From Tabrizicola soli (lineage in GTDB: Bacteria; Pseudomonadota; Alphaproteobacteria; Rhodobacterales; Rhodobacteraceae), in NCBI RefSeq assembly GCF_015999335.1, contig NZ_JAEACP010000002.1, positions 124,001-188,000 on the forward strand: 64,000 bases of DNA. Reading direction: 5' to 3'. Shown here piece after piece: positions 2,558-9,491 of the stretch (the first letter of the stretch is position 1; every line of letters begins with the position of its first letter). A program made the position numbers and the translations under genes. The notes beneath the pieces were generated by a model. The model made no database searches and had not been told where the DNA came from. It was given only the letters and a program-made list of their open reading frames with translations.

Positions 2558-3561
2558 CAGCGGCGTCCTTTCGGTCGGATCTGCGGCACGCCGAGGTCGG
2601 CCGGGTCGATGGCTTGCGCGGGCGCGGCCGTACGCCGCGCGACGCGCAGCTTCGCCGACCGGGCGCGGGGGTTGCGGGCGATCTCGTCCTCGTCCGGGGC
2701 CACGGGCTTGCGGGTCACGAGGTCGAAGCGGGCCCTGGTGTCGGCCTTCGCCGGGGCATAGCGGTTGGCGTTCGCCTCATGGCCGCTGGCCAGCTGGAAG
2801 AACCGTTTCACGATCCGGTCCTCGAGGGAGTGGAAGGTGACGACGGCAAGCAGCCCACCGGGTTTCAGCGCGCGTTCGGCGGCGGCAAGCCCTTCGGCCA
2901 GTTCGGAAAACTCGGTGTTCACCGCAATGCGGATCGCCTGGAAGCTGCGGGTCGCGGGATGGCTTTGCCCCGGCTTCGGGCGAGGCAGACAGCGGGCGAC
3001 GATCTCGGCCAGCCGCGCCGTGGTGGTGATCGGCTCGACGCTGCGGGCCGCGACGATGGCATGGGCGATCCGGCGCGAGGCGCGCTCCTCGCCGTAGTGA
3101 TAGAGGATGTCGGCCAGCACGCTCTCATCGGTGGTGTTCACCAGATCGGCGGCGGAGGGGCCGGACTGGCTCATCCGCATGTCCAGGGGCCCGTCCTTCT
3201 GGAACGAGAATCCCCGCTCGGCCTGATCCAGTTGCATGGAGCTGACGCCAAGGTCGAGGACGACGCCATCCAGCGCCTCGCCCGCCAGCGTGTCGAGGTC
3301 CGAGAAGGTGCCCGCCACCAGCCGCAGCCGGTCGCCATGATCCGTGGCCCAGCCGGCCGCCATCTCCAGCGCCAGCGGATCGCGGTCGATGCCGATCACC
3401 CGATCCGCCCCGGCGGCCAGAAGCGCGCGGGTGTAGCCTCCTGCCCCCAGCGTCCCGTCCAGCCAGACGCCGGACACGGGAGAACATTCCCGCAGGATCG
3501 CGTCGATCAATACCGGGATATGGGGATCGTCGGAGGGGCGGCCTGGCAGCGGACCCGGCAT
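2557..3561 (-). CDS. rsmH: 16S rRNA (cytosine(1402)-N(4))-methyltransferase RsmH (MraW)
   Basis: A 334-residue SAM-dependent enzyme that methylates N4 of C1402 in the decoding centre of 16S rRNA. Family signatures are clear: the start [11 protein letters not shown], the SAM-binding loop [10 protein letters not shown] at about 35-44, the acidic end of strand 2 (GIDRDPLAL), [29 protein letters not shown] and the C-terminal [18 protein letters not shown]. Length is normal for the family. It lies three bases after the mraZ stop and overlaps ftsL by TGATG, the usual dcw order. Confidence 0.97.
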
Positions 3562-3564
3562 GGC

Positions 3565-4071
3565 CTACCCCGTCCGCTTGTGCCGCCCGACAAGGGTCAG
3601 CGGGTCGATGTCGTCATCCTCGTCATCCTCGGCCAGCTCGGCGTCATAGACCTCGCGGCGATAGAGGCGGAAACGGTTGGTGAAGCCGGCGAAGGCGGCC
3701 TCGGCGTCCGAAGGCAGGTCGCCCGCAAAGCCCATCTTCTCGCGCACGCGCGGGGGCAGGACGATGCGGCCGTCGGCGTCGATCTCGACCATCACGGAGC
3801 GGCTGATCAGGTCGCGCTCGGCGCGGGTGCGCTCGGGCGAGCCCATCTCCATCGCCTCGATATCCTCGGCCAGCCGGTCGGCGCCGTGCTTGGAATAGCA
3901 TTCGACGAAGGTCCGCGCCTTGCCGCCGTAGACCAGGTAGAGGCGCGCGCCGCCCTTCTCGCCCTTCTGGGGATCGTCGGAATTCAGGATGGCGCGGAAG
4001 GCGGCCGGGATCGAAACCCGGGCCTTGGCATCTACCTTCTGGTAGAACTCGCCTCTGAACGCCTCTGCCAT
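3565..4071 (-). CDS. mraZ: Transcriptional regulator MraZ
   Basis: A 168-residue first gene of the dcw cluster. It has two SpoVT/AbrB-like swapped-hairpin halves, each with the DxxxR signature: VDAKARVSIPAAFR near residues 13-26 and IDADGRIVLPPRVRE near 97-111. MraZ forms ring-shaped oligomers that bind TGGG-type repeats in its own promoter region and usually represses the cluster. The tail is unusually acidic (EDDEDDDID) before a basic end. Its leader of roughly 270 bases contains a terminator and a phased TGGG array (separate entries), so both autoregulation and premature termination are likely to control the gene. Confidence 0.96.
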   Translation of the reverse strand: MAEAFRGEFYQKVDAKARVSIPAAFRAILNSDDPQKGEKGGARLYLVYGGKARTFVECYSKHGADRLAEDIEAMEMGSPERTRAERDLISRSVMVEIDADGRIVLPPRVREKMGFAGDLPSDAEAAFAGFTNRFRLYRREVYDAELAEDDEDDDIDPLTLVGRHKRTG

Positions 4072-6346: not shown

Positions 6347-7420
6347 TCAGGCCATGCCGCCGGCGATCAGGCGGCGGGCAAGGGCGCGATAGGGCTCGGC
6401 CAGCGGGCTGTCGGTCGCGGCGATGGGGGTGCCGCTGTCGCCGGCCACGCGCACGTCCAGCGCCAGCGGCAACTCGCCCAGGAAGGGCAGGTCCAGCTTC
6501 CTCGCCTCGGCCGCAACGCCGCCATGGCCGAAGATCGGGGTGACATGGCCGCAGTTCGGGCAGCAGAAGGTGGACATGTTCTCGATCAGGCCCAGGACCG
6601 GGGTCTTCAGCTTGGAGAACATGTCCAACGCCTTGCGCGCATCCAGCAGCGCCACGTCCTGCGGGGTGGAGACGACCAGCGCCCCGGTCAGCTGCGTGCG
6701 CTGCGCCAGCGTCAGCTGCACATCCCCCGTCCCCGGCGGCAGGTCGATGATCAGGATATCCAGCTTGCCCCAGGCCACCTGCCCCAGAAGCTGCTGCAGC
6801 GCCCCCATCAGCATCGGGCCGCGCCAGATCACGGCCTCGTTCTCCTTCAGCATCAGCCCGATCGACATCATGGTGACGCCATGCGCGACCAGAGGCTCGA
6901 TGGTCTTGCCATCGGGAGAGGCGGGACGCTGGTTCACCCCCATCATCTTCGGCTGGCTCGGCCCGTGGATGTCGGCATCCAGCAGCCCGACCCGCCGCCC
7001 CTCCCGCGCCAGCGCCACGGCCAGGTTCGAGGCGACGGTGGATTTCCCCACGCCGCCCTTGCCGCTGGCGATGGCGATGATCCGGTCGATCCCCGAGATC
7101 CGCTGCGGCCCGCCCTGCTGCGGCGTCGGGTGCTGGCCGATCTTCAGGCTGGGCGGGGCAGCCTTTGGCGCCGGACCATGCGCCGTCATCACCACCTGGA
7201 CCGAGGTCACGCCGGGCAGCGCCTTCAGCCGCGCCTCGGCCTCGGCCTGGACGGGGCCCAGCGTGCGGGCCTCGTCCGGCGTCGCCGCCTCGATCACGAA
7301 GCGGACCGCGCCGCCCTCGACCGACAGGGCGCGAATCAGGTCGCGTCCGACCAGGTCCCCCCCGCCGGGCAGCGGAACCCCCGCCAGAACCCGCGTCACC
7401 GCTTCCCGATCGAGTGCCAT
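6347..7420 (-). CDS. apbC: Iron-sulfur cluster carrier protein Mrp/ApbC
   Basis: A 357-residue P-loop ATPase of the Mrp/NBP35 group that carries and delivers Fe-S clusters to apoproteins in the cytoplasm. An N-terminal DUF59/MIP18-like domain (residues 1-80) precedes the deviant Walker [10 protein letters not shown] at 120-128, then [28 protein letters not shown] and the cluster-ligand motif FCCPNCGH with CxxC. The ATG at 7420 (MALDREAV) fits family N-termini and follows GGGGGA; an in-frame ATG at 7435 preceded by AGGAG is an alternative. A strong terminator follows, so the gene is probably monocistronic. Confidence 0.95.
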
Positions 7421-7671
7421 TGCATCCCCCGCCATCGAACTCCTGACCCTTATCGTCGTGATTATCGCGCAGAGAGGCAAGACCTGTTGACCAGTTGCTC
7501 AAAATTTCGGCGAAGGCATTAAAAAAGCATGAATATTTCGCGACGAGAGCCATGCGGATGCCGCATGGCAGCATTGCAGCCGGGGGCTATTGTGCAGTTG
7601 CAGCATAAGGTCCATCTTGCCCTCAACAGCGCAACAGAACGCCGCTGAAGCACTACAGAGGCTCATACGAG

Positions 7672-7887
7672 ATGGCATACGTCAACAGCACCCGCGTCGC
7701 CCAGAAAGGTCTTCTCGACCGGCTGGCAGACCTCAAGGACCGCGTCCTGGCCGCGATCCAGGCCCGCAGGCTCTATGCCCAGACCGTGGCTGAACTGAAC
7801 GCCCTGAGCGACCGCGACCTCGCGGATCTCGGCATCAGCCGGCTCGGCATCGTCGAAGTGGCGCGCGAGGCCGCCTTCGGCAAGTAA
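7672..7887 (+). CDS. DUF1127 small protein (CcaF1-like)
   Basis: A 71-residue basic protein ending in a DUF1127 domain, LNALSDRDLADLGISRLGIV (about residues 43-62), preceded by a helical basic region with VLAAIQARRLYAQ. In Rhodobacter sphaeroides a DUF1127 protein, CcaF1, is encoded directly upstream of four CcsR small RNAs, co-transcribed with them from a stress promoter, and affects RNA maturation and turnover. The same order is present here (four CcsR-like RNAs start within 20 bases of the stop), so a CcaF1-like role is likely. The 250 bases upstream are relatively AT-rich and hold the promoter; TTGCTC (7494-7499) and ATTAAA (17 bases further) are a weak candidate only. Confidence 0.88.
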   Translation: MAYVNSTRVAQKGLLDRLADLKDRVLAAIQARRLYAQTVAELNALSDRDLADLGISRLGIVEVAREAAFGK

Positions 7888-7892
7888 GGTTT

Positions 7893-7998
7893 CGTGAAGG
7901 CCCCCTCCTCCTCCCTGGGGCCTGTACGATCGGCGGCGATGCCCTCCTCCTCCCTGGCATCGCCGTCCCTTCCCTTCGGGGGCACCAGCCCCCAGAGA
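7893..7998 (+). ncRNA. ccsR1: CcsR-type sRNA, copy 1 of 4
   Basis: Two hairpins present the motif CCTCCTCCC in their loops, at 7907-7915 (stem GGCCCC/GGGGCC, 7899-7922) and 7946-7954 (nine-bp stem GGCGATGCC/GGCATCGCC, 7935-7964). A further GGGGGC/GCCCCC-type hairpin follows near 7977-7993. The motif is complementary to Shine-Dalgarno sequences and is the hallmark of CcsR RNAs in Rhodobacter. Ends are estimated from the hairpin boundaries. Confidence 0.85.
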
Positions 7999-8098
7999 TC
8001 CGGGTGACCCTCTCCTCCTCCCTTGGGTCATCTGGCGGCGGCGGCCCCTCTCCTCCTCCCTCGGGGTCGCCGCACAAACCATCCGGGCCGTCGTGGCC
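7999..8098 (+). ncRNA. ccsR2: CcsR-type sRNA, copy 2 of 4
   Basis: Motif CCTCCTCCC lies in loops at 8014-8022 (stem TGACCC/GGGTCA, 8005-8030) and 8052-8060 (stem GGCGGCCCC/GGGGTCGCC, 8040-8071, one G-U pair). The second hairpin is repeated base for base in copy 4. Ends are estimated. Confidence 0.85.
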
Positions 8099-8202
8099 CA
8101 GAGATTGGATGCCCCCTCCTCCTCCCTGGGGCGTTCGATACCGCGGCAGCGCCCCTCCTCCTCCCGGGCGCTGCCGCCCCCATCCGGGGCCATGTGCCCC
8201 AC
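8099..8202 (+). ncRNA. ccsR3: CcsR-type sRNA, copy 3 of 4
   Basis: Motif CCTCCTCCC lies in loops at 8118-8126 (stem GCCCC/GGGGC, 8111-8132) and 8157-8165 (very stable 12-bp stem GCGGCAGCGCCC with its complement, 8143-8177). Loop types match copy 1 (CTCCTCCTCCCT). Ends are estimated. Confidence 0.85.
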
Positions 8203-8341
8203 CGGCTTCGGATGCCCTCTCCTCCTCCCTTGGGCATCTGGACCAGCGGCGGCCCCTCTCCTCCTCCCTCGGGGTCGCCGCCTCTCTCCCCCTTGCAGCC
8301 CTGTCCCCGCCACCGGATAGTCCCCCGAACGCGTTCGGGGG
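8203..8341 (+). ncRNA. ccsR4: CcsR-type sRNA, copy 4 of 4, with end hairpin
   Basis: Motif CCTCCTCCC lies in loops at 8221-8229 (stem GATGCCC/GGGCATC, 8211-8238) and 8260-8268 (stem GGCGGCCCC/GGGGTCGCC, 8248-8279). It closely matches copy 2. A perfect 20-bp palindrome at 8322-8341 probably closes the array; no T-tract follows. Ends are estimated. Confidence 0.83.
8322..8341 (+). promoter_or_regulatory. Perfect palindrome before the BenE-type gene
   Basis: CCCCCGAACGCGTTCGGGGG is fully self-complementary and ends four bases before the transporter ATG at 8346. Its right arm supplies the only G-rich, Shine-Dalgarno-like sequence for that gene, so the hairpin could both end the sRNA array and hide the ribosome site. 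Confidence 0.6.
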
Positions 8342-8345
8342 TGAC

Positions 8346-9491
8346 ATGCGGGTTTCGGTGATTTCGGCGGCGACGGTCGCGGCCCTTGTGGGTTACGCGG
8401 CCAGCGTGGCCATCGTGCTGGCCGCGGCCAACGCGCTGGGGGCGACGGAGGCGCAGGCGGCAAGCTGGCTGCTGGCGGTGTCGCTGGCCAAGGCGGCGGG
8501 CTCGGCCTTCCTCTCCTTCCGCTACCGGGTGCCGGTGGTGCTGGCCTGGTCCACTCCCGGCGCTGCGCTGATCGCCGCGACCGAGGGCATCACCCTGGCC
8601 GAGGGCGTGGGCGCCTTCATCGTCGCCGGCCTTCTGATCGCCGCCACCGGCCTGATCCGGCCGCTGGGCGCGCTGGTCGCGCGCATCCCCGACGGAATCG
8701 CGGCCGGGATGCTGGCGGGCGTGCTTCTGCCGTTCTGCCTGAAGGGCGCTGGCGCGGCCGAGGCTCTTCCCGCCGTGGTCCTGCCGATGATCGCGGTCTT
8801 TCTTCTGGTGCGGCTGCTCAACCCCGCTCTGGCGGTGCTGGCGGCCTTTGCCACCGGCATCCTGCTGGCGCTCGCCACGGGGGCGGATGTCTCGACCCTC
8901 GCCCTTGCCGCGCCGGTGCTGGAGCCGGTCGCCCCCGAGTTCCGGCTCTCGGTCCTGCTCGGCCTCGGGTTGCCGCTCTATCTTGTCACCATGGCCTCGC
9001 AGAACCTGCCCGGCTTCGCCACCCTGCGCGCGGCGGGATACGAGCCGCCGGTCACGCCGGCGCTGACGGTGACGGGGCTTCTGTCGGCGGTGACGGCCCC
9101 GTTCGGGGCGCATACGGTCAGCATGGCGGCGATCACGGCGGCGATCTGCCTGGGGCCGGACGTCCACCCCGAGAAGGAACGCCGCTGGATCGTGGGCCTG
9201 GCCTATGCCGGAGCCTGGGTGATTCTGGGGCTGCTGAGCCCTGCGGTGCTGCAACTGCTGGCCGCGCTGCCCGGCCCGATGGTGCTGGCGCTGGTGGCGC
9301 TGGCGCTGCTCTCGCCGCTGATGGGCGCGCTGACGGCGGGGTTCGCCCTGCCCGAACAGCGATTCGCGGCGGTGCTGACCCTGGCGGTCACCGCTTCGGG
9401 CGTCGCGGCCTTCGGCATCGGCGCGGCGTTCTGGGGGCTGGTGGCCGGAATCGGCGCGCAGGGGCTGGACCGGCTGAAATCCGGGCGCTGA
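8346..9491 (+). CDS. benE: BenE family transporter (benzoate/H+ symporter-like)
   Basis: A 381-residue, almost entirely hydrophobic protein with about 11-12 membrane segments. It fits the BenE/YdcO group of the nucleobase-ascorbate-type fold: the early FRYRVPVVLAWSTPGAAL motif, IPDGIAAGMLAGVLLPFCLK, and LYLVTMASQNLPGFATLRAAG in the middle are family hallmarks. BenE of Acinetobacter imports benzoate; the actual substrate here is not shown because no aromatic catabolic genes are nearby. The start ATG lies in the arm of a strong hairpin (separate entry). It faces uvrD convergently, with two palindromes between them. Confidence 0.9.
   Translation: MRVSVISAATVAALVGYAASVAIVLAAANALGATEAQAASWLLAVSLAKAAGSAFLSFRYRVPVVLAWSTPGAALIAATEGITLAEGVGAFIVAGLLIAATGLIRPLGALVARIPDGIAAGMLAGVLLPFCLKGAGAAEALPAVVLPMIAVFLLVRLLNPALAVLAAFATGILLALATGADVSTLALAAPVLEPVAPEFRLSVLLGLGLPLYLVTMASQNLPGFATLRAAGYEPPVTPALTVTGLLSAVTAPFGAHTVSMAAITAAICLGPDVHPEKERRWIVGLAYAGAWVILGLLSPAVLQLLAALPGPMVLALVALALLSPLMGALTAGFALPEQRFAAVLTLAVTASGVAAFGIGAAFWGLVAGIGAQGLDRLKSGR

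Follow-up and report, generated by a model that had tools for sequence, protein, structure and literature searches.

The cuckoo RNAs, or CIN1 family, of Alphaproteobacteria are built of CCUCCUCCC hairpins whose number varies, and they are often encoded beside a DUF1127 gene. The ccaF1-CcsR1-4 system of Rhodobacter sphaeroides, whose features include induction by stress and Hfq binding, belongs to this group, and its CcsR1 is presumably the RNA also listed as RS0680a. The founding paper on cuckoo RNA is reportedly that of Reinkensmeier and Giegerich (2015). Here we analyse a 64,000-nucleotide (nt) stretch of the Tabrizicola soli genome (the window), in which a ccaF1-like DUF1127 gene is followed by an array of four units, each predicted to fold into two hairpins.

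As far as the cited passages of PMC3927594 go, RS0680a has two stem loops with an anti-Shine-Dalgarno (anti-SD) motif in each. The same source proposes a single family with a varying number of hairpin modules that blocks ribosome binding sites, and describes a fixed loop, variable stems and a link to stress. In R. sphaeroides, the CcsR RNAs are co-transcribed with ccaF1 from an RpoHI/RpoHII promoter (PMC10253847, PMC8625941), processed by RNase E and then turned over by PNPase (PMC7866481), and FlhR mRNA is a target in trans (PMC8307010). PMC10253847, which also names the CIN1 locus, describes CcaF1 as an RNA-binding protein with an effect on the maturation of the CcsR RNAs. The ar14 and NfeR1 RNAs of Rhizobiales (RF02344) are described as one family of RNAs whose hairpins bear the same anti-SD loop and are predicted to pair antisense with many mRNAs; they differ in having three hairpins and an RpoD-type promoter (PMC10746234).

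With the window locus, which is real and well conserved, the established ccaF1-CcsR ("cuckoo", CIN1) group gains a further member. It carries CCUCCUCCC in all eight loops, has a DUF1127 gene upstream, and combines variable paired stems with a constant loop; we found nothing that sets it apart from cuckoo RNAs. It shows that such a Rhodobacter stress-RNA system is ordinary and strongly conserved in the genus and common in the family, with structural support that the Rfam cut-off mostly misses. For the locus we demonstrate homology, fold, covariation, partner gene, synteny and repeat relations. New here are the genus-wide covariation, a linker hairpin with two linker lengths, and a corrected repeat history.

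Family identity of the four units

A scan of the window at the Rfam gathering scores returned a tRNA alone, and no CcsR1. At an E-value threshold, RF02791 (CcsR1) matched units 1 to 4 (7889-7971, 7996-8078, 8101-8182 and 8205-8286, all on the + strand) with 62.3, 41.2, 51.5 and 41.2 bits, respectively (best E-value 1e-14). The curated cut-off of this family lies at 65.3 bits, 3 bits above the best unit. Because the units score below it, we regard them as homologous to RF02791 and not as formal members. The same model matched 26 of 41 related genomes at an E-value of 0.001, two of the 41 above the cut-off; among 14 control genomes it matched one (Thermus composti), below the cut-off. RF02344 gave matches at 7887-7973 (48.1 bits), 7995-8110 (47.0 bits) and 8207-8280 (40.1 bits), under its curated cut-off of 58.8 bits. 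Matches to the Rfam families 6C, ar7 and Scr3202 scored far under their respective cut-offs and were discarded. A model that had seen only the letters of the window and its open reading frames (the original prediction) had likened the array to CcsR1-4 behind ccaF1. The sub-cut-off match of RF02791 to every unit, the DUF1127 partner and the covarying stems described below bear this out.

We also searched with a model of our own, R1, built from 104 units. With 150 of 6354 first-look candidates scored, the four units were the only strong matches in the T. soli genome (70.6-77.5 bits; next match, 34.7 bits), and R1 further matched 48 of 61 sampled family genomes. The 34.7-bit match (G000:C1:178505-178586; E-value 0.019; 27.1 bits and E-value 3e-4 with Rfam CcsR1) was considered as a second CcsR-like locus and set aside: it is without CCTCCTCCC and ends T-rich. 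Its two hairpins, which are GC-rich and probably a terminator, lie between tsf and a LuxR-type gene, both genes being named from translations by eye and not by a family search. Elsewhere in the genome, a weak second DUF1127-like match was seen (G000:C4:77768-77896, − strand, E-value 2.9e-4), at which R1 listed no match at E-values up to 10.

Motif, fold and covariation

The motif CCTCCTCCC occurs eight times in exact form on the + strand, at 7907, 7946, 8014, 8052, 8118, 8157, 8221 and 8260. These are the positions originally predicted, and no further copy exists on either strand of the window; 100 shuffles held a mean of 1.49 copies and a maximum of 5. Spacings of 39, 68, 38, 66, 39, 64 and 39 nt arrange the copies in four pairs, with 38-39 nt within and 64-68 nt between them. 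Every copy sits in the loop of a hairpin with a stem of 11-12 base pairs (bp) and a loop of 11-14 nt. The two hairpins of a unit, A and B, lie at 7892-7929 and 7932-7967 (unit 1), 8000-8035 and 8038-8073 (unit 2), 8104-8139 and 8143-8177 (unit 3), and 8207-8242 and 8246-8281 (unit 4), and the stem of hairpin 1A holds one mismatch. The unit folds had z-scores of -5.0 to -7.6, with none of 200 shuffles as good for any of the four, and 7885-8345 folded as one piece had a z-score of -9.6. Two predicted resemblances were recovered as well: hairpins 1A and 3A have the loop CTCCTCCTCCCT in common, and the second-hairpin stem shared by units 2 and 4 is identical over 12 nt on either side of the motif. 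The 2B and 4B loop, TCTCCTCCTCCCTC, is 14 nt long by fold, a small correction to the earlier description.

The compensatory stem changes on which the original prediction depended were found, as strong covariation over 104 distinct genus units. These are the units numbered 1 to 4 out of 125; the numbers count clean pairs of exact motifs and may differ from true position (for example in L092, L105, L109 and L100), and unpaired and one-mismatch hairpins were left out of all unit counts. In the two-hairpin structure, 88.6% of cells were paired compared with 80.7% after shuffling, 183 cells were double changes compared with 65.5, and the covariation score was 0.325 compared with 0.185 (0/500 shuffles in each case; 0.08-0.10 for the score of a slid structure). 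For each of five structure measures, at most one of 500 shuffles did as well, and all five lay above every slid version. For 15 of the 21 base pairs, at least one unit had both partners altered. Pairing reached 98.2% in hairpin B and 77.6% in hairpin A, where misaligned stems of shifted length have probably reduced the figure. Motif columns were invariant in 104 of 104 units for hairpin B and in 103, with one gap, for hairpin A, a constancy that is partly one of choice because units were picked by their loop motif.

This covariation also bears on the idea that the array is part of a coding sequence and not a set of RNAs. A forward frame does run open through the array into benE (8004-9491), the reverse strand has two open frames, and four of the seven motif spacings are multiples of three. 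The other three spacings are not, however, and 21 of 29 genus arrays are without an open forward frame over the array. Moreover, benE read from the ATG at 8346 already spans positions 4-376 of the 378 in its Pfam profile. With the frames lost in most relatives and the stems covarying as RNA, a coding repeat was rejected as extremely improbable.

Small hairpins without the motif lie between the units, at 7978-7993 (GGGGGC-ACCA-GCCCCC), 8085-8099 (GGGCC-GTCGT-GGCCC) and 8186-8200 (GGGGC-CATGT-GCCCC), all on the + strand. Across the genus, linkers fall into two length classes between motifs, 52-60 and 32-36 nt, and all three in the window are long. A motif-free small hairpin was present in 71 of 71 long linkers, compared with 19% of shuffled linkers, and shows several pair types at most positions. 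The absence of such hairpins from the short linkers (0/18) is uninformative, because the 6-10 nt left after trimming are under the smallest hairpin scored. The two length classes alternate along several arrays (L094, L098, L106, L108). The linker hairpin is a concrete candidate for a processing signal. The literature covered on the motif, CcsR1, DUF1127 and cuckoo RNA, which does not extend to the main family papers, describes neither the lengths of linkers nor a duplication of two units.

Conservation in the genus and family

The DUF1127 gene of the window (7672-7887, + strand) encodes 71 amino acids and matches PF06568 (E-value 4.5e-12). A DUF1127 match was found in 30 of 32 genus genomes, T. 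soli included, and the two without it are 70% and 81% complete. Twenty-nine of these 30 loci carry 4 to 16 motifs; the remaining one (L114) has 1 and stops at a contig edge. In the window and the genus loci, the DUF1127 gene is directly upstream of the array on the same strand. The gene mrp adjoins all 30 loci and benE adjoins 27, the three without benE (L104, L112, L114) being cut off by contig ends. In G011 (C108, C46), G008 (C22) and G021 (C86), the CcsR1 matches and the DUF1127 gene lie on different contigs. These arrays were probably split by assembly gaps, because the DUF1127 loci (L104, L112, L114) end at contig edges.

Among 33 named loci with at least three motifs, one of which (L001) is the G018 genus locus counted again, mrp adjoins 32 and benE 10. 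A triple-motif array was present in 141 of 295 family genomes, and the reversed control pattern in roughly ten (table read by eye). A DUF1127-like open reading frame accompanies the array on the same strand at 55 of the 59 array loci taken from the family (some loci share a genome), and 54 of these frames open upstream of the first motif. DUF1127 by itself does not imply an array, since 34 of 80 named DUF1127 loci, many from Methylobacterium, are without any motif. The published passages cited here give two to four hairpins, fewer than the largest arrays of the genus (16 motifs) and of one family locus (26). Within the genus the number of motifs runs from 4 to 16, and together with that family locus this spread is a natural series in which to look for a dose effect of anti-SD RNAs. 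The largest array seen is L124 (G220:C1, listed triples 334949-335888), with 26 CCTCCTCCC hairpins over 1.16 kilobases and a period of three hairpins, about 140 nt. A period of three, not two or four, was also found in L017 (Wenxinia marina, 3248-4002), which has 17 hairpins.

Repeat history of the array

The array had been read as two-by-two, with one pair of unlike units duplicated, and this reading stood in part. With the motif excluded, units 2 and 4 are close kin (identity 0.81), and the four-hairpin period is the best in the window (0.76, mean 0.61; p = 0.027 by permutation). Units 1 and 3, at 0.67, are no closer than 1 and 4 (0.67) or 3 and 4 (0.69). Per hairpin, 2A and 4A are 0.81 identical, and 1A and 3A are 0.73 identical with an inner stem in common (mirrored-shuffle p = 0.001). 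Hairpins 3A and 4A are about as close (0.71), and the likeness of 1B and 3B does not exceed chance (0.60, p = 0.12). On these identities, the duplication in the window covers units 2 and 4 and not convincingly units 1 and 3, which share little beyond one inner stem. The nearest relatives of units 1 and 2 are L102_u1 (0.91) and L091_u2 (0.95), from other species. As these closest kin are same-numbered units elsewhere, the types of units 1 and 2 look older than the window array.

A tree of 123 units over 83 columns, with two L118 units dropped, ranks the possible histories and does not settle them, because columns are few and many forks are open. It places units 2 and 4 inside one 10-row set (99/95) and units 1 and 3 apart. 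Forcing a clade of 1 and 3 costs 27 log-likelihood units, yet the approximately unbiased (AU) test does not reject it (p-AU 0.099), and it equally fails to reject 2 and 4 alone (0.21) or all 27 numbered-first units together (0.195). In the free tree, 24 of these 27 cluster (83/91). A further type comprises 14 rows from 13 arrays (100/100) and includes the last numbered unit of all 13; in this tree it is absent from the window array. One clean duplication of an unlike pair, from 1,2 to 3,4, as the original prediction proposed, would accommodate the closeness of 2 and 4, the inner stem of 1A and 3A, the four-hairpin lag and an AU test that leaves 1 and 3 standing together. It is at odds with the chance-level likeness of 1B and 3B, with a 3A-4A identity about equal to that of 1A and 3A, and with the kinship of units 1 and 2 to those of other species, and we consider it quite unlikely.

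Over the genus as a whole, units at a distance of two resemble each other more, on average, than those at a distance of one or three (excess 0.048; p = 0.001 by permutation), also with unit 1 excluded (0.066, p = 0.0035). Array by array, lag 2 beats lag 1 in only 14 of 25. Compared hairpin by hairpin, 14 of 24 genus arrays score highest at a lag of four, 4 of them at p < 0.05. The best hairpin lag in 66 family arrays was 2 in 28, 4 in 17 and 3 in 9. Judged from these repeat patterns, block duplication is real in the group, with a varying block size. Array length would shift as units, chiefly inner ones and often two at once, are duplicated in tandem, and the first unit would be retained between most species. 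Unit 4 of the window would then be a sister type of unit 2.

Proposed function

We interpret the locus, with a probability of about 0.9, as a Tabrizicola-like ccaF1-CcsR operon, in which a single transcript is processed in its linkers to give anti-SD RNAs that damp translation. The single transcript, its induction by stress, its processing and the pairing with Shine-Dalgarno sequences are proposed mostly by analogy with published work on R. sphaeroides. The transcript would begin with the DUF1127 (CcaF1-like) mRNA and continue on the 3′ side into the four two-hairpin RNAs, and nucleases (RNase E in R. sphaeroides) would cut it in the linkers. Each freed RNA would show two anti-SD loops that pair with GGAGG-type ribosome binding sites, and this pairing would damp mRNA translation under stress. 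If the stems merely present the loop, their sequence can drift by compensatory change and the loop stays fixed. The T. soli genome has 394 GGAGGA sites 4-10 nt before an ATG compared with 81 for the reversed pattern, which suggests many possible partners for partial pairing, and a titration of many mRNAs by the array is plausible. The 3′ end of the 16S rRNA was not found in the T. soli assembly, nor as a pattern in five relatives, and we take the identity of the host anti-SD sequence as an assumption and not from its own 16S.

Several observations weigh against the operon interpretation. No window unit attains the 65.3 bits of RF02791, and the full nine-base complement before an ATG is not enriched in the T. 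soli genome (3 compared with 2). The -12 TAT of an RpoHI/RpoHII promoter was not seen in the conserved upstream block, and a U-tract terminator was found neither at the window array nor, beyond few candidates, across the genus; in these two elements, as in its score under the cut-off, the locus may differ from ccaF1-CcsR1-4 of R. sphaeroides. On the side of repeat history, the first units of L101, L106 and L105 fall outside the main first-unit clade, and lag 2 is no higher than lag 1 in 11 of 25 arrays.

Alternatively, the array may act in cis, as a structured 3′ untranslated region that stabilises or processes the ccaF1 mRNA, with autoregulation by bound CcaF1 and with the loops as protein or nuclease contacts. 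Gene and array do stay together, and the RNA binding of CcaF1 and its effect on CcsR maturation (PMC10253847) would suit such a role. An anti-SD loop on otherwise drifting stems nevertheless fits antisense use better, the published CcsR target, flhR mRNA, is in trans (PMC8307010), and ar14/NfeR1, with the same loop, are predicted to be antisense to many mRNAs (PMC10746234). We therefore regard a cis role as unlikely and favour RNAs of the ccaF1-CcsR operon type that act on other mRNAs. More tentatively, such operons might form a device that tunes anti-SD dosage. Its ends would be fixed, by a conserved first unit and, in many species, a conserved type of last unit, whereas its middle could expand as inner units multiply in twos; the linker, either long with its motif-free hairpin or too short for one, would set single versus paired release. 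In the window, the usual last-unit type would be absent from this device and a unit-2-type copy would stand in its place; we treat both parts of this idea as possible, if doubtful.

Flanking regions

An 8-bp perfect hairpin (CCCCCGAA-CGCG-TTCGGGGG, 8322-8341, + strand) forms the 3′ end of the array and may mark the transcript end. It is followed by no T run and benE starts at 8346, a small correction to the earlier description; no terminator-like + strand site was listed between the array and benE in the window, the hairpin itself included. The product of benE (8346-9491, + strand; PF03594, E-value 7.3e-106) is benzoate transporter-like and is probably outside the system. On the other side lies the divergent mrp-type P-loop NTPase gene (6347-7480, − strand, start codon provisional; PF10609, E-value 4.3e-98), a conserved neighbour.

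Between mrp and the DUF1127 gene, the genus alignment revealed a strongly conserved block. It includes a putative promoter at 7588-7619 (+ strand), near-invariant in 30 upstream regions, 29 of which extend to TATTGTGCA. This promoter consists of TATTGTGCA followed by CCATCTTG, with TTG at 7590-7592, CCAT from 7612 and 19 nt between them. Most relatives read CCATGTT, and the conserved form is TTG-N19-CCATNTT. Only the TTG fits, matching the -35 element of RpoHI/RpoHII promoters as named in PMC10673084. The strongly conserved block as a whole (7558-7619) also contains an imperfect inverted repeat (7558-7574, ATGCCGC-ATG-GCAGCAT), which reads ATGCTGC-ATG-GCAGCAT in most relatives and could bind a regulator.
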